A DNA stretch of 64,000 bases from Actinacidiphila yeochonensis CN732 (GTDB lineage: Bacteria > Actinomycetota > Actinomycetes > Streptomycetales > Streptomycetaceae): contig NZ_JQNR01000004.1 in assembly GCF_000745345.1 (NCBI RefSeq), positions 992,001-1,056,000 on the forward strand, read 5' to 3'. Below, one piece after another: positions 3,901 to 61,480 of the stretch. The first letter of the stretch is position 1. The number at the start of each line of letters is the position of its first letter. The notes beneath the pieces were generated by a model. That model had not been told where the DNA came from. It did no database searches and saw only the letters and a list, made by a program, of their open reading frames with translations. A program made the translations under genes and the position numbers.

Positions 3901-5469
3901 TCAGTCCTTCGAGAACATGCTGAGCATGCGCCGGGTCACCGCGAAGCCGCCGAAGATGTTCACCGACGCCAGCAGGATCGCGACGAAGGAGAGCACCGTC
4001 ACGGCCGTGTGGGCGTGGCCGATCTGGAGCAGCGCGCCGACCACGATGATGCCCGAGATGGCGTTGGTCACCGACATCAGCGGCGTGTGCAGGGCGTGGT
4101 GGACGTGTCCGATGACGTAGTAGCCGATCACCACGGCCAGCACGAAGACGGTGAGGTTGCCGATCAGCTGGCTCGGCGCGAAACCGGCCAGCACGAAGAG
4201 CAACGCCGAGGTGAGGCCCGCCAGTTCGTAGCGGCGCCGGGTCGCCATGGGCTGCCCGGCCGCCCTGGGCGCGGGCGCCGGGGCGGCCGGGCTCGCGGCC
4301 GCGGCCGGGCCTCCGGGGGACGCCGCCGACACCTGGACCGGGGGCGGCGGCCACGTCACCTCGCCCTCCCGGGCCACCGTGACCGACCGCTGCACCACGT
4401 CGTCGAGGTCCAGCACCGCCCGGCCGTCCTTGCCGGGGGTGAGCAGCTTGAGGAGGTTCACCAGGTTGGTGCCGTACAGCTGGGACGCCTGGCCGGGCAG
4501 CCGGCCGGCCAGGTCGGTGTAGCCGATGATCGAGACCTGGTTGGCGGTGACGACGACCTCGTCGGCGACCGTGCCGGCCACGTTGCCGCCCTGGGCGGCG
4601 GCCATGTCCACGATGACGCTGCCGGGGCGCATCGAGGCCACCATCTCCTCGGTGATGAGCCGCGGCGCGGGGCGCCCCGGGATCAGCGCGGTGGTGATGA
4701 CGATGTCCACCTCCGGCGCCTGCCGGGCGTAGAGGGCCGCCGCGCGGGTGGTGTAGTCGTCCGACATCTCCTTGGCGTAGCCGGTGGCGCTCACCTCCAC
4801 CTCGGCCGACTCCACCGAGAGGTACTCGCCGCCCAACGACCGCACCTGGTCGGCTACTTCGGGACGCGGGTCGGTGGCCAGGACGACCGCGCCCAGGCTG
4901 CCCGCCGCGCCGATCGCGGCCAGCCCGGCCACCCCGGCGCCGGCCACCAGCACCCTGGCCGGCGGCACCTTCCCGGCGGCGGTGACCTGTCCGGTGAAGA
5001 ACCGGCCGAACCGGTGGGCGGCCTCCACCACCGCCCGGTAGCCGGCGATGTTCGCCATGGAGCTGAGCACGTCCAGCGACTGGGCCCGGGAGATCCGCGG
5101 CACCGCGTCCATGGCCAGCGCGGTGACGCCCTGCCCGGCCAGGGCCGCCAGCAGCTCCGGGCTGGTCGCCGGGGCGAGCAGGGCCACCAGCACGGCGCCC
5201 TCCCGCAGCAGTGCGATCTCCTCCGGGGCGGGCGGGTTGACGGCGAGGACCACGTCGGCCCCCCAGGCCGCGACCCGGTCCGCAACGGCCGCCCCGGCCG
5301 CCGTGTACGCCTCGTCCGACAGGCTCGACCCCAGGCCCGCACCGGACTCCACCATGATCTCGTAGCCGAGCTTGCGGAGTTGGGCGACGGTCGCGGGCGT
5401 GGCCGCCACCCGTGTTTCGCCTGGCCGCGACTCCGAGACGACACCCACTCGTTGCGCAGACTGACTCAT
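3901..5469 (-). CDS. pntA: NAD(P) transhydrogenase subunit alpha
   Basis: PntA is the partner of PntB. The chosen ATG at 5469 begins [13 protein letters not shown] and gives 522 residues, close to the usual ~510 of one-piece alpha subunits; the frame stays open further upstream, but that stretch overlaps the DUF1349 gene. Residues ~8-140 are the alanine dehydrogenase/PNT N-domain, ~145-310 the NAD(H)-binding domain with the Rossmann signature [14 protein letters not shown], and ~425-522 hold the membrane helices that join PntB. A Pro/Ala-rich linker (about 385-410) connects the soluble and membrane parts. Upstream, the minus strand reads TTCTGC, 17 bp, TATGCC, a possible promoter. It is the first gene of the pntAB operon. 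Confidence 0.95.
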
Positions 5470-5642
5470 GCTGGTCCCTTCTGCCTTGGACGGGTGCGCA
5501 TAGCGTGGCATAGCGGCGCCCAGCCGCAAGCAGAAGTGAACGGTCCGGATCCCGAAGGACCCCGGGCCGCGAAGCCGCGTCAACTCGCCCCAACCGCCTT
5601 CCGGTAGGGGCGCCTGTCGGTGCGTCAGCCGCGGGGACGGGC

Positions 5643-6239
5643 TCAGCCGTGCAGGTCGCGCGGGATGGGCTCGCCGACACGCAGGTCGTGGAAGCGGGCG
5701 TGGAAGCCGGCGCGCTGCGGGGAGCACGCCATGACGCCCACCCGGCAGGTCCGCGGCAGATCGAGGTACGCCAGCCGCAGCAGCTGCCAGGTTCCGCCGG
5801 CGTCGCGGAACTGGACGCGCACCGCCTCGGCGTGGCGGGTCACCCGCAGGTCCAGCGGTCCGCTGTGGCCGGCCAGCCGGAGCACGGACCAGTCCGAACG
5901 GCCGTTGGTGACCACGGCGCTGAGGTGCGGGTCGCCGTCGGTGTGCTCGATGCCGGTCTTCATCCAGGTGTGCTCGTCGGCTCGGACCATGAGCCCGAGC
6001 TGGTCGTAGAGCTCCTCGAAGTCGCCCTCGACGGTCACGGACGCGGTGAAGTCGCCGCTGACCTCGGCGGAGAGGAAGTGGCCGTCGTCGCGGGCGAAGC
6101 CGTAGAACGTGTGCTGCCAGAAGTCCGTCCGGTCGCCGGTGACCACGTGCAGGGAGGTCCCCTCGACGGTCCAGCCCGGCGGCTCGTTGTACCAGTCCAT
6201 GGCGGTGAGGTCGGCGGGCTCGGTGGCGGGCGCGGTCAT
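5643..6239 (-). CDS. DUF1349 domain protein (concanavalin A-like fold)
   Basis: This 198-residue protein has the features of the DUF1349 family: an N-terminal DWYNEPPGW segment, [19 protein letters not shown] in the middle, and a C-terminal beta-rich tail with [16 protein letters not shown]. The family has a concanavalin A-like jelly-roll fold, and homologues are often called regulation-of-enolase-like proteins; no enzymatic role is proven. No signal peptide is visible, so it is probably cytoplasmic. The ATG at 6239 has an AAGGAG ribosome site 8 nt upstream. It is transcribed alone, divergently from the peptide ABC operon. A TAGGGT -10-like element lies at 6320-6325 on the minus strand. Confidence 0.85.
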
Positions 6240-6598
6240 CGTGGGGCTCCTTCACCGGCCGCAGCGGCGGCCGTCGGTCCTGGGCGGCGCGGTCCGGCCG
6301 TACCCGGCCGTACGACACGACCCTACGCGGGGGCGGCCGGACGCACTCCGACGACAACAGGCCACCCTCCACACTCCCGCATCACTCCCGCAACATTTGC
6401 CGGGCAGGCTGGAGTTGATCGCACCGGCGACGGGCGACCGGCAGCGCCGTGCGCACGGCGCGCGGCGGGCGCGCGGACGGCGCAGGCGTGAAACGGACGG
6501 GGGCAGGGTAGATCCCTGTGGCTCATGGTCTGTCGTGCCCTCGTCATTGGTGGCCGGCGGCCGGACCCGGTGCCGGTGGTGTCGCGAAAGGGAGGGCG
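6240..6598. other. Divergent intergenic region with a perfect palindrome and direct repeats
   Basis: This 359-bp region separates DUF1349 (-) from the peptide ABC operon (+) and has no credible gene. It contains an 18-bp perfect palindrome at 6444-6461 (GCGCCGTGC and its complement) and a 10-bp direct repeat CACTCCCGCA at 6372-6381 and 6383-6392, spaced 11 bp (one helical turn). A TAGGGT -10-like element for the minus strand is at 6320-6325, and a TAGATC element sits near 6510 on the plus strand. The palindrome and repeats may be regulator sites, which is inference only. Confidence 0.4.
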
Positions 6599-8446
6599 AT
6601 GGCACGCAAGCGCGTGGTCGGACGGATGAGAGGTGCGGTCGTGGCCGCGCTGCTGGCGATGACCGCCGCGGCGTGCACGGGCGGCGGCGGATCGCACACG
6701 GCGATCAGCGACGGCCGGAGTGCCACCGCGTCCCACGGCCCGGTGAAGAAGGGCGGGACGGTCACCGTCGCCGAGGTCTCGGCGCAGCCCGACTTCGTCT
6801 TCCCGTTGGTCCCGGCGACCAACCAGAACGGCTACAACGTCAACCTGACGCAGGGCATGTGGCCCTTCCTGGTCTATGCCGGGGACGGCGGCTCGTCCGA
6901 GGTCAACAAGGACCGCAGCCTCTTCAGCTCGCTGGACTACTCGAACGGCGGAAAGCGGCTGACCATCCGGCTCAAGGACTGGAACTGGTCGGACGGCAAG
7001 CCGATCACCAGCCGGGACTTCACCTTCGTCTACAACCTGCTGAAGACGAACTACAAGAACTGGCAGGCCCACCTCCAGGGGCTCTTCCCCGAGGACGTGA
7101 CCAAGGTGGCCACGCCCGACGCGCACACCGTGGTGCTCGACCTCGACCGCGCCTACAACCCCGACTTCTACACCGACGACGTGCTCAGCACGATCCCGCT
7201 GCTGCCGCAGCACGCCTGGGACAAGGAGTCCGCCACCGGCGCGGTCGGCGACTACGACACCACCGCCGCCGGGGCGAAGGCCGTCTACAGCTACCTCCAG
7301 AAGGAGGGCGCGAAGACCGGCTCGTTCGCCACGAACCCGCTGTGGCAGGTCGTCGACGGCCCGTGGAAGCTCAGCGAGTTCCGCTCCAACGGCTACTACT
7401 CCTACGTCCCCAACCCCGGCTACTCCGGGGCCAAGCCGGCCATCGACAAGCTGGTCGTCAGCCCGTTCACCACGGACACCCCCGAGATCAACGCGCTGCG
7501 CTCGGGCAGCACCCTCGACGTGGCCGGGCTCCCGCTCAACGACATCAAGCAGGCCCAGGCCCTCAAGTCGAGCGGCTACTCGATCGCCAGCGAGCCGATC
7601 CCCGGCGTGGCCGAGATCGTGCCCAACTTCTACAACGCCGACGTCGGCCCGCTGCTGCGCCCGTTGTACATCCGGCAGGCGCTGGAGTACCTCATCGACC
7701 GGACGCAGATCGTCTCCAAGGTCTACGACGGCTACGCCGATCCGGGCAACGGACCCGTCCCGGTGAAGGCCCAGGAGAGCTGGGCCACCCCGCTGGAGAA
7801 GTCCGGCGGCCCCTACCCGTACTCGCCGCAGAAGGCGACGGCGCTGCTCACCGCGCACGGCTGGAAGGTGGCGGCGCGCGGCACGACCACCTGCCAGAAC
7901 CCCGGGACCGGGGCGAACCAGTGCGGCGCGGGCATCAAGGCCGGCCAGGCCCTGACCTTCCAGCTCCTCTACTCCTCCGGCCGGACCACCACCGACCAGC
8001 AGTTCGCCGCGATCAAGTCCTCCGAGGCGCAGGCCGGCATCACCCTGAACCTCAAGTCGGAGCCGTTCAACACCCTGATCGGCACCATGGGCACCTGCAC
8101 CGCCGCCTCCCACCCGAAGTCGGGCTGCGGCTGGCAGCTGGCGAGCTACGGCTACGTGCCCTACCCGCTCTACCCCAACGGCTCCGGCCTCTTCGACACC
8201 GGCGGCAGCAACAACGCGGGCGGCTACTCCGACCCGACGATGGACAAGCTGATCAAGGAGACCCAGTACAGCACCTCCAGCTCGGCGTTCAACGAGTACG
8301 AGGACTACGCCGCCCAACAACTCCCCTGGCTGTGGCTGCCATTGCGCAGCGGCATCCTGGTCTACCGGACCAAGCTCCAAGGCGTCGTCCCGCTCAACCC
8401 GTTCTCCGGCGGCAACAACTTCGAGGACTGGTACTACACCTCATGA
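6599..8446 (+). CDS. Peptide/oligopeptide ABC transporter substrate-binding lipoprotein
   Basis: This is an extracellular solute-binding protein of family 5 (DppA/OppA-like), the ligand-capturing part of a peptide importer. The chosen ATG at 6599 has a GGGAGG ribosome site and gives 615 residues, starting with a lipoprotein signal: RKRVVGR, a hydrophobic stretch, then the lipobox AAAC near residue 26, so the mature protein is anchored outside the membrane by a lipidated Cys. Family features include KDWNWSDGKPITSRDFTFVYN and RQALEYLIDRTQIV. It is the first gene of a five-domain ABC operon (binding protein, two permeases, two ATPase modules). The ligand may be a peptide or another small solute; it cannot be read from sequence. 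Confidence 0.92.
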   Translation: MARKRVVGRMRGAVVAALLAMTAAACTGGGGSHTAISDGRSATASHGPVKKGGTVTVAEVSAQPDFVFPLVPATNQNGYNVNLTQGMWPFLVYAGDGGSSEVNKDRSLFSSLDYSNGGKRLTIRLKDWNWSDGKPITSRDFTFVYNLLKTNYKNWQAHLQGLFPEDVTKVATPDAHTVVLDLDRAYNPDFYTDDVLSTIPLLPQHAWDKESATGAVGDYDTTAAGAKAVYSYLQKEGAKTGSFATNPLWQVVDGPWKLSEFRSNGYYSYVPNPGYSGAKPAIDKLVVSPFTTDTPEINALRSGSTLDVAGLPLNDIKQAQALKSSGYSIASEPIPGVAEIVPNFYNADVGPLLRPLYIRQALEYLIDRTQIVSKVYDGYADPGNGPVPVKAQESWATPLEKSGGPYPYSPQKATALLTAHGWKVAARGTTTCQNPGTGANQCGAGIKAGQALTFQLLYSSGRTTTDQQFAAIKSSEAQAGITLNLKSEPFNTLIGTMGTCTAASHPKSGCGWQLASYGYVPYPLYPNGSGLFDTGGSNNAGGYSDPTMDKLIKETQYSTSSSAFNEYEDYAAQQLPWLWLPLRSGILVYRTKLQGVVPLNPFSGGNNFEDWYYTS

Positions 8447-54439: not shown

Positions 54440-57055
54440 ATGACGACGCCTTCTCCCGTTGCCTCCGAAGAGCCCGCGGGCGCCCCGCACTCCGCTCCCT
54501 CCCCGAACGCGATGCGCCGGGCGCTGCACCGCGCCGAGGAGGGAGTCGCGCTGGACACCGCCGAGGCCGCGGTGCTGCTCCAGGCCCGGGGCGCCGACCT
54601 GGAACGGCTGTCGGCGGTCGCCGCGCGGGTGCGCGACGCGGGGCTGGAGGCCGCCGGCCGCCCCGGCGTGATCACCTACTCCCGCAAGGTCTTCATCCCC
54701 CTCACCCGGCTGTGCCGGGACCGGTGCCACTACTGCACCTTCGTCACCGTCCCCGGCAGACTGCGCCGCGAGGGCCACGGCATGTTCCTGTCGCCCGACG
54801 AGGTACTCGACATCGCCCGCCGGGGCGCGGAACTCGGCTGCAAGGAAGCCCTTTTCACCCTCGGCGACCGCCCAGAGGAGCGGTGGCCCGAGGCCCGCGA
54901 GTGGCTGGAGGCGCACGGCTACGACGACACCCTCGCCTACGTGCGGGCCATGTCCGTGCGGGTACTGGAGGAGACCGGCCTGCTGCCGCACCTCAACCCC
55001 GGGGTGCTCACCTGGACCGACTTCCAGCGGCTCAAGCCGGTCGCGCCCTCCATGGGGATGATGCTGGAGACCACCGCCACCCGGCTGTGGTCCGAGCCCG
55101 GCGGCCCGCACCACGGCTCGCCGGACAAGGAGCCCGCCGTACGGCTGCGCGTGCTGGAGGACGCGGGACGCTCCAACGTGCCCTTCACCACCGGCATCCT
55201 CATCGGCATCGGCGAGACGCACGAGGAGCGCGCCGACTCCCTCTTCGCGATCCGCCGCGCCCAACGCCGCTACCACGGCGTCCAGGAGGTGATCGTGCAG
55301 AACTTCCGCGCCAAGCCGGACACCGCCATGCGCGGCATGCCCGACGCCGAACTGGACGAACTGGCAGCCGCCATCGCCGTCGCCCGCCTCGTACTCGGCC
55401 CGGCCGCCCGCATCCAGGCCCCGCCCAACCTCGTCGACGGCGAGTACGGCCGCTTCCTCGCCGCCGGCATCGACGACTGGGGCGGGGTCTCCCCGCTCAC
55501 CCCCGACCACGTCAACCCCGAGCGGCCCTGGCCGCAGATCGACGAACTGGCCGCCCGCACCGCCGAATCCGGCTTCACCCTGCGGGAACGTCTCACCATC
55601 TACCCGGAGTTCGTCCGCCGCGGCGAACCCTGGCTGGACCCGAGGCTGCTGCCCCACGTCACCGCCCTGGCCGACCCGGAGACGGGCCTCGCCCGGGAGG
55701 ACGTCCGGCCCGCCGGCCTGCCCTGGCAGGAGCCCGAGGACACCTTCAGCGCGGCCGGCCGCACCGACCTGCACGCCACCATCGACACCACCGGCCGCAC
55801 CGCCGACCGCCGCGACGACTTCGACGAGGTCTACGGCGACTGGGCCGAACTGCGCGAGCAGGCCGCCCCCGGCATGGTGCCCGACCGGGTCGACGCCGAC
55901 GTCAGGCAGGCTCTGAGCACCGCCGCCGACGACCCGACGCGCCTCACCGACGACCAGGCCCTCGCCCTCCTGCACGCCGACGGCCCCGCCCTGGACACGC
56001 TGTGCCGGATCGCCGACGACGTGCGCCGCGACACCGTCGGCGACGACGTCACCTACATCGTCACCCGCAACATCAACTTCACCAACGTCTGCTACACCGG
56101 CTGCCGGTTCTGCGCCTTCGCGCAGCGCCGCACCGACGCCGACGCCTACACCCTCTCCCTCGACCAGGTCGCCGACCGCGCCGAACAGGCGTGGGAGGTC
56201 GGCGCGGTGGAGGTGTGCATGCAGGGCGGCATCCACCCGGACCTGCCCGGCACGGCCTACTTCGACATCGCCCGCGCCGTGAAGGCCCGGGTGCCCGGCA
56301 TGCACGTCCACGCCTTCTCGCCGATGGAGGTCGTCAACGGCGCCTCCCGTACCGGCATGTCGATCCGCGAATGGCTCACCGCCGCGAAGGAGGCGGGCCT
56401 GGACACCATCCCGGGCACCGCCGCCGAGATCCTCGACGACGAGGTGCGGTGGGTGCTCACCAAGGGCAAACTCCCCACCGCCACCTGGGTGGAGGTGGTC
56501 ACCACCGCCCACGAGCTCGGCATCCGCTCCTCGTCCACGATGATGTACGGGCACGTGGACCAGCCCCACCACTGGCTGGGGCACCTGCGGCTGCTGGCCG
56601 AGATCCAGCAGCGCACCGGCGGCTTCACCGAGTTCGTCACGCTGCCGTTCATCCACACCAACGCGCCGGTCTACCTGGCCGGCATCGCCCGCCCCGGGCC
56701 GACCACCCGCGACAACCGCGCGGTCACCGCCATGGCGCGGCTGCTGCTGCACCCGCACATCCCCAACATCCAGACCAGCTGGGTCAAGCTCGGCACCGAA
56801 GGCGCCGCCGAGATGCTGCGCGGCGGCGCCAACGACCTGGGCGGCACGCTGATGGAGGAGACCATCTCGCGGATGGCCGGCTCCTCCTACGGCTCCTACC
56901 GCTCCGTCCGCGACCTCGCCGCCATCGCCGAGGCGGCCGGCCGGCCCGCCCGGCCGCGCACCACCACCTACGGCCCGGTGCCCGAGGAGCGGGTGCGGGC
57001 CGCGCTCGCCTCCGACGGCCACCTGCCGCGCCTGCTGCCGGTGCTCGGCGGCTGA
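54440..57055 (+). CDS. fbiC: Bifunctional F420 biosynthesis enzyme FbiC (FO synthase)
   Basis: FbiC makes FO, the deazaflavin chromophore of cofactor F420, from tyrosine and 5-amino-6-ribitylaminouracil. It fuses the CofG and CofH radical-SAM enzymes; 871 residues match the actinobacterial fusion. The N-half has the 4Fe-4S/SAM motif [10 protein letters not shown] (~residue 93-102) and the C-half a second cluster motif [10 protein letters not shown] (~552-561). [15 protein letters not shown]-type sequence joins the halves. The mRNA appears leaderless. Its presence implies that the host makes F420. It converges on the UBP-type zinc-finger gene across a strong hairpin. Confidence 0.96.
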
Positions 57056-57149: not shown

Positions 57150-57515
57150 TCAGCGCAGCCTCGTGCGCCAGTCCGCCGGGAGCCGGTCGGCCGGGCCCGG
57201 CACGGACTGGTCGCCCGGGTGGCTCTCCGGGGGTGCCAGCCGCGGGCCGTCCTCGACGTACTGCGCCCGCGCGTAGTCCCAGAACCACTCCTCGCCGGGT
57301 TCGAAGCTCTGCACCACGGCGTGGCCGCTGCCCGCGGCGTGGGTGCTGGCGTGCTGCGCCGGGGAGGAGTCGCAGCAGCCGACGTGGCCGCAGGCCGCGC
57401 AGCGGCGCAGGTGGAACCACCAGCCGCCGCTCGCCTCGCAGTCCGCGCAGCCGGTGCCGCTCGGCGGCACCGACGGATCGATGTTCGTGCTTCCCTGACG
57501 GTCCGGTGTGGTCAT
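57150..57515 (-). CDS. UBP-type zinc-finger protein
   Basis: This 121-residue protein consists of one ZnF-UBP-like domain: CADCEASGGWWFHLRRCAAC then GHVGCCD, HASTHAAGSGHAVVQSFEPGEEWFWDY, with the Cys/His zinc-ligand pattern of the eukaryotic domain that binds the free C-terminus of ubiquitin. Bacteria lack ubiquitin, so the partner is unknown; a C-terminal Gly-Gly-like tail is a possibility. The start is ATG 57515, 12 bp after the kinase stop, with an AGGGAG ribosome site overlapping that stop. It is the last gene of a three-gene unit with the response-regulator fusion and the histidine kinase. The C-terminal ~40 residues are a Pro-rich tail. Confidence 0.88.
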   Translation of the reverse strand: MTTPDRQGSTNIDPSVPPSGTGCADCEASGGWWFHLRRCAACGHVGCCDSSPAQHASTHAAGSGHAVVQSFEPGEEWFWDYARAQYVEDGPRLAPPESHPGDQSVPGPADRLPADWRTRLR

Positions 57516-57527
57516 GCCGACGGCTCC

Positions 57528-59124
57528 CTACTGCTCGGCTCGGTCCGGTTCCGGCTTCGGCCCCGCCGGGTCGGGCTCCCGGTCCGGGTCCGGCCCTGCT
57601 CCCGGGCGGCCCCGGTGGCGGGTGCGGCTCGCGGGCCCGCGCCTCGCGCCGGGCGGCGTCGGCGGCGTCCGCCGCGCGGTCCGCCGCCGCGGCCTCGCTC
57701 TCCGGCGCGTCCAGCGGCAGCCGCACCCGGAAGCGGGTGTCGCCCGGCTCGGAGCGCACCTCCAGGTCGCCGTGGTGCTTGTTCACCACGATCCGCCAGG
57801 AGATGTCCAGGCCCAGGCCGGTGCCCTGCCCGACCGGCTTGGTGGTGAAGAACGGTTCGAAGATCCGCTGCCGGATCTCCGGCGGAACCCCGGGCCCGGT
57901 GTCCTGGAACTCGACCACCAGCCGGTCGGGCTCCTGCCACGTCCGCACGGTGAGCGTGCCCTCGCCGGCCATCGCCGAGACCGCGTTGTCCACCAGGTTC
58001 GTCCACACCTGGTTCAGTTCGCCCGGGTACGCCGGAATCCGCGGCAGGCCGGGGCCGAACTCCCGCACCACCCGGATCTTCGGGCCGATCTTGCCGGTCA
58101 GCATCTGCAGCGTGCTGTCCAGGAGTTCGTGGACGTCCACCACCTGGTACGGCGCCCGGTCGACCTGGGCGTACTGCCGTGCCGCGCCGACCAGGCCGGA
58201 GATGCGGGAGGTGGCGTCCTCGATCTCGTTCATCAGCAGCTCGGTCTCCACGGTGTAGTTGAGCCACCGCACCGCGCTCTCCAGCAGGCCGCCGTCCACC
58301 GCCGCCGCGACCTGGTCCAGCCACTCCGCGTCCAGGCCGGCCTGGACGAAGACCGGCGCCAGGTCCCAGCCGCCCGAGATGCCGTGCGCGTCCATCCAGT
58401 CGGCGACGGCGTCCTCGCGGTCGGACTCCTCCATCGGGCCGAGCTGTTCGGCCTTCGCGACCTTCTCCGCGGCCCGTTCCTGCACGCCGACCAGCGTGTC
58501 GAGGTCCGCCTGCCGGTAGGGCCCGCCGGCCAGGACGCGCAGCTTGTGGCGCATCCCCGCCACCCGGTCCCGCAGGCTGGCGGTGGCCCGCAGCGCGGCC
58601 GCGGCCGGGTTGTTCAACTCGTGCGTCAGCCCCGCCGACAGCGAGCCCAGCGCCAGCAGCCGCTCGCGCTGGCTGATCGCCTGCTGTACCGCCTTGTTGC
58701 CGAAGAACAGCCCCTCCAGCAGGTGCACCGCCATCGGGAACCAGTCGGCGACGATCCGGGCGAAGTCGTCCGCGGGCAGCACGAAGAACCGCGAGGGAAC
58801 CGTCACCCGCAGCGAGTTGGTGTAGTGCTGCGGCACCCGGTCGCCCAGGTATGCCTGGAACGCGCCGCTGTACACGCCCGGTTGGGAGGTGCGGTTCACC
58901 TCCACCTCGTCCGTGCCGACCCGGCGGCTGGTCACCACCTCGCCCTCCAGCAGCACGTAGAAGCACGTCGCCAGCTCGCCCTCGGCGAACACCGGACCCG
59001 GCTCCATCCGCTCCACCCGGCCGGTCCGGCACAGCTCGGCCAGCTGGTCCGGCGTCAGGCGCTCGAACAGGAAGAGCGACCGCAGCTCGTGCGGGTCGCA
59101 GGGACAGGGATTCTCGCCGCTCAC
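57528..59124 (-). CDS. Sensor histidine kinase with cyclic-nucleotide-binding domain, frame disturbed at the 3' end
   Basis: The gene starts at GTG 59124, overlapping the fusion gene by GTGA. Residues ~10-125 are a CRP/cNMP-binding-type domain (LFLFERLTPDQLAELC, FAEGELATCFYVLLEGEV). The dimerisation/H-box is LSAGLTHELNNPAAAA (His ~200). The HATPase_c domain has the N-box (NQVWTNLVDNAVSAM), DTGPGVPPEIRQRIFEPFFTT and GTGLGLDISWRIV. There are no membrane helices, so it is a cytoplasmic kinase. The printed frame runs through the zinc-finger gene to 56968. Removing one base near 57595-57606 gives a natural acidic tail (PDPDREPDPAGPKPEPD) and a TAG at 57528, about 531 residues in all. I take that as the real end. 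Confidence 0.82.
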
Positions 59125-60803
59125 AGGCCCTCCAGGTAGCGGTGCGCCAGCATCACGGCCATCGCGCCCTCGCCCACCGCCGAGGCCACGCGCTTGGCGG
59201 ACTCCGAGCGCACGTCCCCGGCCGCGAACACCCCGGGCACGCTGGTCTCCAGGTGGTACGGCAGCCGGTCCTGCGACCAGCCGGCCGGCGGCCGCCCGTC
59301 GTCCAGCAGGTCCGGGCCGGTCAGCACGAACCCGTGGTCGTCGCGCCGCACCACCCCGTCCAGCCAGCCGGTGCGCGGCGCCGCCCCGATGAACACGAAC
59401 ATCCGCTGCGCGTCGACCAGTTCCGTCGAGCCCGAGGCGGTGTCGCGCAGCGTCAGCCCCTCCAGGTGGTCCTCGCCGTGCACCCCCTCCACCTGCGTGG
59501 AGGTACGCACCCGGATCGTCGGGATGTCCGCGATCTGCTGCACCAGGTAGTACGACATCGACGCCTCCAGTGCCGCCCCGCGCACCAGCAGCGTCACCGA
59601 CTTCGCGTGTTGCGACAGGTAGACCGCCGCCTGGCCGGCGGAGTTGGCGCCGCCGACGATGTAGACGTCCTGGCCCTCGCAGCCGGCCGCCTCGGTCAGC
59701 GAGGAGCCGTAGTACACCCCGCGGCCGGTCAGCTCCTCGACGCCCGGCACGTCCAACTGGCGGTACGTGACACCGGTGGTGAGGATGACGCTCTGCGCGG
59801 AGACCGCCAGCCCGTCGGAGAACCGCACGGTGCGTGTCGGCCCCTCCACGTCCAGCGCCGTCACCTCGCACGCCGTCAGCAGCTCGGCGCCGAACCGGCT
59901 CGCCTGGCGCCGCGCCCGGTCGGTGAGCTGCGCGCCGGAGATCCCGTCGGGGAAGCCCAGGTAGTTCTCGATCCGGGCGCTCTGGCCTGCCTGGCCGCCG
60001 GTCGCGGTGCGCTCCACCAGCACCGTGCGCAGCCCCTCCGAGGCCCCGTACACCGCCGCGCCCAGCCCCGCCGGGCCGGCGCCGACCACCACCAGGTCGT
60101 AGAACTCCTCGGCCGGCGCGGTGGACAGGCCCACCCGCGCCGCCAGGTCGTGGTCCGAGGGCTCCAGCAGCACCTCGCCGTCCGCGGTGATCACCACCGG
60201 CAGCCGCCGCTCGTCGCAGTCGGCCGCGGTCAGCAGCCGCCGGCCCTCCGCCTGGTCCGACAGGTACCACCGGTACGGCACCTGGTTGCGGGCCAGGAAC
60301 TCCCGGACCTTCGACGACCGGGCCGACCAGCGGTGGCCGATCACCTTCGTCTCCGGCACCGGCCGGTGGTCCGAGGCCAGCCACGCCTCCAGCATCTCGT
60401 CGACCACCGGGTACAGCTTCTCCTCCGGCGGGTCCCACGGTTTGAGCAGGTAGTGGTCCAGGTCGACGACGTTGATCGCGTCGATGGCGGCGCCGGTGTC
60501 GGCGTAGGCGGTCAGCAGCACCCGGCGTGCGCCCGGGTAGACGTCCATGGCCAGTTCGAGGAACTCGACGCCCGTCATGTTCGGCATCCGGTAGTCGGCC
60601 AGGATCACCGCGACCAGGTCGCCGCGCAGCTTCATCTCGCGCAGCGCGTCCAGCGCGGCCTGGCCGGACTCCGCGCGCACCACCCGGTACCGCTCGCCGT
60701 AGCGGCGCCGCAGGTCGCGGGCGACGGCGCGGGAGACTCCCGGGTCGTCGTCGACGGTGAGGAGCGCGGCGCGGCGCGTGCCGTCCGGCTCGGTCATGGG
60801 CAT
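59121..60803 (-). CDS. Response-regulator receiver fused to a thioredoxin-reductase-like FAD enzyme
   Basis: This protein has about 560 residues from the ATG at 60803 (a second ATG at 60797). Residues ~10-130 are a receiver domain with the acidic pocket (LLTVDDDPG), phospho-acceptor Asp (VILADYRMPN, ~residue 60), TAYAD and KPWD. A linker of ~100 residues (RNQVPYRWYLSD) resembles a thioredoxin/glutaredoxin-like part. Residues ~240-560 are a TrxB-like FAD/NAD(P)H oxidoreductase with VVVGAGPAGLGAAVYGASEG, ENYLGFPDGISG and FAAGDVRSESAKR. The redox-active CxxC of true thioredoxin reductases is absent (GVYYGSSLTEAAGCEG instead). It forms a GTGA-coupled unit with the histidine kinase, its likely phospho-donor. 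Confidence 0.9.
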   Translation of the reverse strand: MPMTEPDGTRRAALLTVDDDPGVSRAVARDLRRRYGERYRVVRAESGQAALDALREMKLRGDLVAVILADYRMPNMTGVEFLELAMDVYPGARRVLLTAYADTGAAIDAINVVDLDHYLLKPWDPPEEKLYPVVDEMLEAWLASDHRPVPETKVIGHRWSARSSKVREFLARNQVPYRWYLSDQAEGRRLLTAADCDERRLPVVITADGEVLLEPSDHDLAARVGLSTAPAEEFYDLVVVGAGPAGLGAAVYGASEGLRTVLVERTATGGQAGQSARIENYLGFPDGISGAQLTDRARRQASRFGAELLTACEVTALDVEGPTRTVRFSDGLAVSAQSVILTTGVTYRQLDVPGVEELTGRGVYYGSSLTEAAGCEGQDVYIVGGANSAGQAAVYLSQHAKSVTLLVRGAALEASMSYYLVQQIADIPTIRVRTSTQVEGVHGEDHLEGLTLRDTASGSTELVDAQRMFVFIGAAPRTGWLDGVVRRDDHGFVLTGPDLLDDGRPPAGWSQDRLPYHLETSVPGVFAAGDVRSESAKRVASAVGEGAMAVMLAHRYLEGL

Positions 60804-61084: not shown

Positions 61085-61480
61085 ATGCAGTCGTACACGA
61101 TCGGGCAGGCCGCGCGCCTGCTGGGCGTCAGCCCGGACACCGCCCGCCGCTGGGCCGACGCCGGGCGGGTCGCCACCCACCGCGACGACGCGGGGCGGCG
61201 CCTCATCGACGGCCGGGACCTGGCCGCCTTCTCCGTCGAGCTCGCCCAGCAGGCCGACGGCGGCCAGGAGCCGGCCCGCACCTCCGTCCGCAACGCCTTC
61301 CCGGGCATCGTCACCGCCGTCAAGCTCGGCGACGTGGCCGCGCAGGTCGAGATCCAGGCCGGCCCGCACCGCCTGGTCTCCCTCGTGACCCGCGAAGCCG
61401 TGGAGGAGCTCGGCCTGGAGGTCGGCGCGGAGGCCGTCGCCCGCGTCAAGTCCACGAACGTGCACATCGACCGCCCGTAG
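61085..61480 (+). CDS. HTH (excisionase/MerR-like) protein with TOBE molybdate-binding domain
   Basis: This 131-residue protein has an N-terminal helix-turn-helix of the excisionase/MerR type (YTIGQAARLLGVSPDTARRWADAG, residues ~4-27). A TOBE/Mop domain follows at ~68-130 (SVRNAFPGIVTAVKLGDVAAQVEIQAG ... VKSTNVHID), which typically binds molybdate or tungstate oxyanions. It may be a molybdate-responsive regulator or store; no mod transport genes are in the window. The mRNA appears leaderless. It converges on the LuxR regulator with a 63-bp gap. Confidence 0.88.
   Translation: MQSYTIGQAARLLGVSPDTARRWADAGRVATHRDDAGRRLIDGRDLAAFSVELAQQADGGQEPARTSVRNAFPGIVTAVKLGDVAAQVEIQAGPHRLVSLVTREAVEELGLEVGAEAVARVKSTNVHIDRP

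Follow-up and report, generated by a model that had tools for sequence, protein, structure and literature searches.

A conserved three-gene locus of Actinacidiphila yeochonensis CN732 joins a receiver-bearing flavoprotein and a histidine kinase to a UBP-type zinc finger. Our preferred reading, to which we give a probability of roughly 0.55, is a phosphorelay governing a flavin oxidoreductase that works without thiols, in which the zinc finger would act as an adaptor that binds peptides. The components of the trio are already named in automatic annotation. The conserved locus is nonetheless more unusual than first described, because its redox module has systematically lost its thiols.

The trio lies on the minus strand of the window, by which we mean the whole 64-kb stretch of DNA analysed. 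It runs from a fusion of a receiver with a domain resembling thioredoxin reductase (TrxR), through a CRP-domain histidine kinase, to the zinc finger:

59121..60803, minus strand: receiver / glutaredoxin-like / TrxR-like fusion, 560 aa (Pfam, alignments, AlphaFold, Foldseek)
60426..60761, minus strand: receiver domain, fusion residues 15-126 (Pfam, alignment)
60126..60353, minus strand: glutaredoxin-like domain, fusion residues 151-226 (profile match to 2lqo, motif count)
59130..60101, minus strand: TrxR-like FAD/NAD(P)H domain, fusion residues 235-558 (TIGR01292, alignment with the genome's TrxB)
57528..59124, minus strand: CRP-domain histidine kinase, GTG start at 59124, end taken as the TAG at 57530-57528 past an apparent frameshift
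58621..58623, minus strand: phospho-accepting His168 of the kinase, in THELNNPAAA (alignment of 86 family kinases)
57150..57515, minus strand: UBP-type zinc finger, 121 aa (Pfam, homologue alignments, Foldseek)

Open reading frames and Pfam domains agree with the sequence-only reading that the three genes face one direction at these positions. The GTGA that it assigned to the first two genes is likewise present at 59124-59121, where the kinase GTG start overlaps the stop of the fusion; a start codon overlapping the fusion stop recurs in 77 of 127 related loci. A second possible start of the fusion lies at 60797. The zinc-finger ribosome site had also been placed over the kinase stop, and this held only in part: a TAG does lie within the site (TAGGGAG, 57530-57524, with the zinc-finger ATG at 57515), but it is not in the kinase frame. 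Two plus-strand genes neighbour the trio, encoding the F420 precursor enzyme CofGH (FbiC) at 54440-57055 and a MerR/TOBE molybdopterin-binding protein at 61085-61480.

In the window, the kinase frame has no stop until 56968. The codon-position GC signature follows this frame to ~57655 and switches frame between ~57655 and 57600; the second frame then ends at the TAG on the zinc-finger ribosome site. In 18 of the 20 same-genus loci examined, which are all those with a zinc finger, the kinase instead stops within an ATGA that also holds the zinc-finger start codon. Since these relatives end at the overlap and the GC signature changes frame, the most economical explanation is a one-base indel, whether from a recent mutation or from faulty assembly, in the low-complexity, repetitive C-terminal tail of the window kinase (57528-57715), beyond the conserved kinase segments. 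On the same two grounds we rejected a genuine 718-aa kinase running through the zinc finger. Elsewhere, the zinc-finger gene of a trio in the Streptomyces family (locus L064, ~8170-8420, plus strand) also appears frameshifted.

The catalytic parts of both receiver and kinase look functional from their conserved residues. The receiver (Response_reg, 2.4e-13) has a D18/D19 pocket, the phospho-acceptor D70 (codon 60596-60594), T98 and K121, all invariant in 33 diverse homologues, and the Asp on which the proposed phosphorelay hung is thus in place. The kinase (HATPase_c, 1.1e-25) has H, N, G1, F and G2 boxes and a His168 that are conserved across 86 aligned family kinases. These residues bear out the earlier picture of an intact kinase beside an intact receiver. 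Phosphotransfer between kinase and fusion is inferred, the pair itself being marked by conserved adjacency and start-stop coupling. The degenerate CRP-like domain of the soluble kinase would perceive a signal and so trigger autophosphorylation on His168, from which the phosphate would pass to Asp70 of the receiver. Other kinases may serve the fusion as well, because about one-third of receiver-form loci have no kinase directly downstream (some are contig ends, and three have a kinase upstream).

Cyclic-nucleotide-binding domains have as their consensus a phosphate-binding cassette with a Glu and an Arg. When the cassette region was aligned across the 86 kinases, the canonical Glu and Arg were absent at the expected place, and the Pfam match (cNMP_binding, 3.2e-6) scored exactly at the curated cut-off. 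For these reasons a cyclic nucleotide, one of the ligands entertained at first, appears unlikely, and the CRP-like domain of the kinase probably binds none.

The output domain had been taken for a thioredoxin reductase, an identity that the alignments contradict. Pfam recognizes Pyr_redox_2 (1.1e-30), and the AlphaFold model of the fusion (mean pLDDT 87.7) returned TrxR and AhpF in Foldseek, with TMt up to 0.94 to solved TrxR; TIGR01292 scored 225 bits against a cut-off of 343. Aligned with the genome's own TrxB, which is encoded elsewhere and has CATC, none of the ~130 family members compared keeps either TrxR cysteine, and the CxxC position in the window copy reads GSSL. The segment between the receiver and this domain, which has no Pfam assignment and was overlooked in the first reading, matches the glutaredoxin Rv3198.1 (2lqo, E 2e-8, using a 22-sequence profile against solved structures). 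It has W-S-x-x-S where glutaredoxin has W-C-x-x-C. Because CxxC is lost from the one domain and SxxS occupies the other, the output of the fusion is, judged by its sequence, a thiol-less flavoprotein and not a TrxR. What survives of the original proposal is a flavoprotein module with no DNA-binding domain; the dithiols do not. One-thiol chemistry may occur in the fusion's clade, since many of its members have a single cysteine near residue 375.

The FAD-binding and nucleotide-binding glycine motifs are strictly conserved in the family alignment. The NADPH-phosphate motif HRRxxxR is gone, replaced by VRGxxLxxSM, and with the contacts so altered, NAD(P)H cannot be taken for granted as the electron donor. 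In our preferred reading, receiver phosphorylation would switch the attached glutaredoxin-like/TrxR-like flavoprotein, which would move electrons from NAD(P)H through FAD to an acceptor such as a quinone, oxygen, a small molecule or a small redox protein. We suppose a non-thiol acceptor because both dithiols have been lost. Ferredoxin/flavodoxin reductases also have the TrxR fold without CxxC and are often misannotated as TrxR (PMC10294844). They rank far below true TrxRs in similarity to the fusion (63 versus 165 bits), and since the fusion family resembles true TrxRs more closely, its loss of cysteines looks like a separate one.

The reductase family was matched in 100 genomes of a phylum sample of 396, and the gene order expected of a coupled trio proved to be conserved: in the 71 receiver-form loci of this sample the kinase lies directly downstream in 46, and the zinc finger is third in 13 of those. 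The full trio is present in 18 of 20 same-genus loci and in ~22 of 80 named genome loci. Outside the phylum, cyanobacteria, Acidobacteria, Deinococcota and Betaproteobacteria have the fusion-kinase pair as well; among these cases are two plasmids, an annotated one from a cyanobacterium and one from a Betaproteobacterium. Chance does not account for the order, because 19 of the 91 zinc-finger matches in the phylum sample (tabulated by hand) lie within 3 kb of a family reductase, where a rough estimate expects well under one.

A FastTree phylogeny of 193 reductase domains divides into receiver-fused and CRP-fused clades through a single swap. The presence of a neighbouring zinc finger switches at least 20 times across this tree, with gains and losses counted alike. 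In the sister clade, the receiver's place on the same family of reductase is taken by a directly fused CRP-like domain, and this suggests that input and reductase belong to one pathway; inspected by eye, this domain keeps the Glu and lacks the Arg. NCBI names these proteins 'cyclic nucleotide-binding domain-containing thioredoxin-disulfide reductase' or 'FAD-dependent oxidoreductase', and a name is all the characterisation that we found. Unlike the window fusion, they have no receiver and no kinase.

The same evidence can be read in the opposite direction, with the flavoprotein as a sensor. Its FAD redox state or NAD(P)H occupancy would be read via the receiver and fed back on the kinase, by phosphate-sink or phosphatase control, and the true output would be another protein, perhaps reached via the zinc finger. 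With the dithiols and the NADPH-phosphate motif gone, catalysis may be weakened, as this reading would have it, and two or three CRP-domain kinases stand in tandem behind a single fusion at some loci (L079, L080 and L081, and likewise L134 and L136); the fused CRP-like domain of the sister clade would then be the input module. Against it, the FAD and nucleotide-binding glycine motifs are kept strictly, and a reduced, and in that respect limited, all-against-all comparison of neighbours gave no other receiver or output protein consistently beside the kinase. That comparison returned mainly antisense shadows of kinase and reductase in high-GC DNA, together with chaperone genes in four sister-clade loci. 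We regard a sensory flavoprotein as possible but doubtful, and continue with the flavoprotein as the controlled output.

The third gene encodes a zf-UBP domain (Pfam 1.3e-13, 51.4 bits against a cut-off of 22.7); the structure of a bacterial homologue, RPA1320 (PDB 2IDA, E 1.7e-20), has been solved. Nine Cys/His positions (C23, C26, C39, C42, C47, C48, H55, H59 and H65) are invariant, as are W33, R37 and W77. Foldseek with the zinc-finger model gave 2IDA as the top fold match (6.4e-7), and also matched HDAC6 and USP zinc fingers in complex with ubiquitin tails; the model is moderately confident (pLDDT 67.9), and pocket geometry was for this reason not read from it. Compared with the eukaryotic zf-UBP pocket, the window protein keeps the aromatic W/W/Y positions, while the pocket Arg is replaced and the Arg of WxHLRxC is invariant instead. 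Unlike RPA1320, the window copy falls in an actinobacterial subfamily whose C-terminal tail is proline-rich and conserved (57150-57260 in the window): LAPPxSHPxxQPxPGPxxRVPxDW, with PGPAxRVPxDW as the version shared by actinobacterial zinc fingers. A UBP zinc-finger match also lies under a gene annotated as a cation:proton antiporter on a Deinococcus ficus plasmid (NZ_CP021083.1, 343283-343480), which suggests other fusions.

What such a finger binds may be approached from its human counterparts, some of which are not ubiquitin binders and use the zf-UBP pocket for internal motifs (PMC13376213). This makes a putative peptide-binding adaptor plausible, with no requirement for ubiquitin-like tails, and we consider it a fair guess. 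In the preferred mechanism, the adaptor would link kinase or reductase to a partner protein. A finger that instead recognized the C-terminal end of a ubiquitin-like modifier (Pup or a sulfur-carrier protein, for example), and recruited proteins bearing it to the kinase or the reductase, would account for the match to HDAC6 and USP fingers in their ubiquitin-bound form and for the retained aromatic positions, and Pup is encoded in the genome. This seems improbable to us given the replaced pocket Arg and the human domains just mentioned. Pup in particular is disfavoured as the ligand: the genome's Pup ends in GGQ, not GG, and the finger is also found in Rhizobium, Burkholderia and Hymenobacter, bacteria not known for Pup.

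That the zinc finger is a coincidental neighbour of the kinase-reductase pair is quite improbable, even though about two-thirds of such pairs lack one. It has the start-stop overlap with the kinase in the 18 same-genus loci, and it is associated separately with both reductase clades. At locus L086 (~5349-7000, minus strand), kinase and zinc finger form one ORF, and a second zinc finger lies upstream of the fusion gene. A separate observation concerns chaperones: in Rhodococcus sp. DK17, a zinc finger and a CRP-fused reductase come after dnaK, grpE, a J-domain gene, clpB and trxA, and three further loci share parts of this chaperone arrangement. The arrangement belongs to Mycobacteriales, where at loci L125 (217-8942), L095, L177 and L178 the two genes lie in or beside a DnaK/GrpE/J-domain/ClpB/thioredoxin cluster. 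A conventional thiol reductase of the thioredoxin or AhpF type under phosphorylation control is hardly credible, and we rejected it: TrxR and AhpF are the best sequence and fold matches, but the cysteines are missing from every TrxR-like domain examined, the glutaredoxin-like domain has SxxS, and TIGR01292 falls well short of its cut-off.

Known systems resemble the locus in part. Response regulators with enzymatic output share the intact receiver fused to an enzyme-like domain and the adjacent partner kinase, but here the output is a thiol-less TrxR-like flavoprotein preceded by a glutaredoxin-like spacer. AhpF and bacterial TrxR offer the closest folds and share with the fusion the layout of one or more thioredoxin-fold domains before a low-Mr TrxR module; the fusion differs in lacking redox-active cysteines in both domains and in its added receiver, and we noticed no peroxidase partner in the annotated stretches examined. 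In the literature searched, with most subscription journals outside it, neither the trio nor the fusion is described.

If the preferred reading is true, the locus would represent a two-component system that acts through electron transfer, not transcription, with a chemistry unlike that of its thiol-based relatives. The trio would also place a domain best known as a ubiquitin reader in a bacterial context. We hold it unlikely, though worth stating, that all this forms one widespread system: a thiol-stripped flavin oxidoreductase under the control of either a phosphorelay or a fused CRP-like sensor, coupled by the zinc finger to protein tails or protein quality control. The two-clade design, with either receiver and kinase or a directly fused CRP-like domain, makes the question testable by comparing the forms. 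As the reductase family is common, a working model would help to annotate many proteins that are now named thioredoxin reductase.
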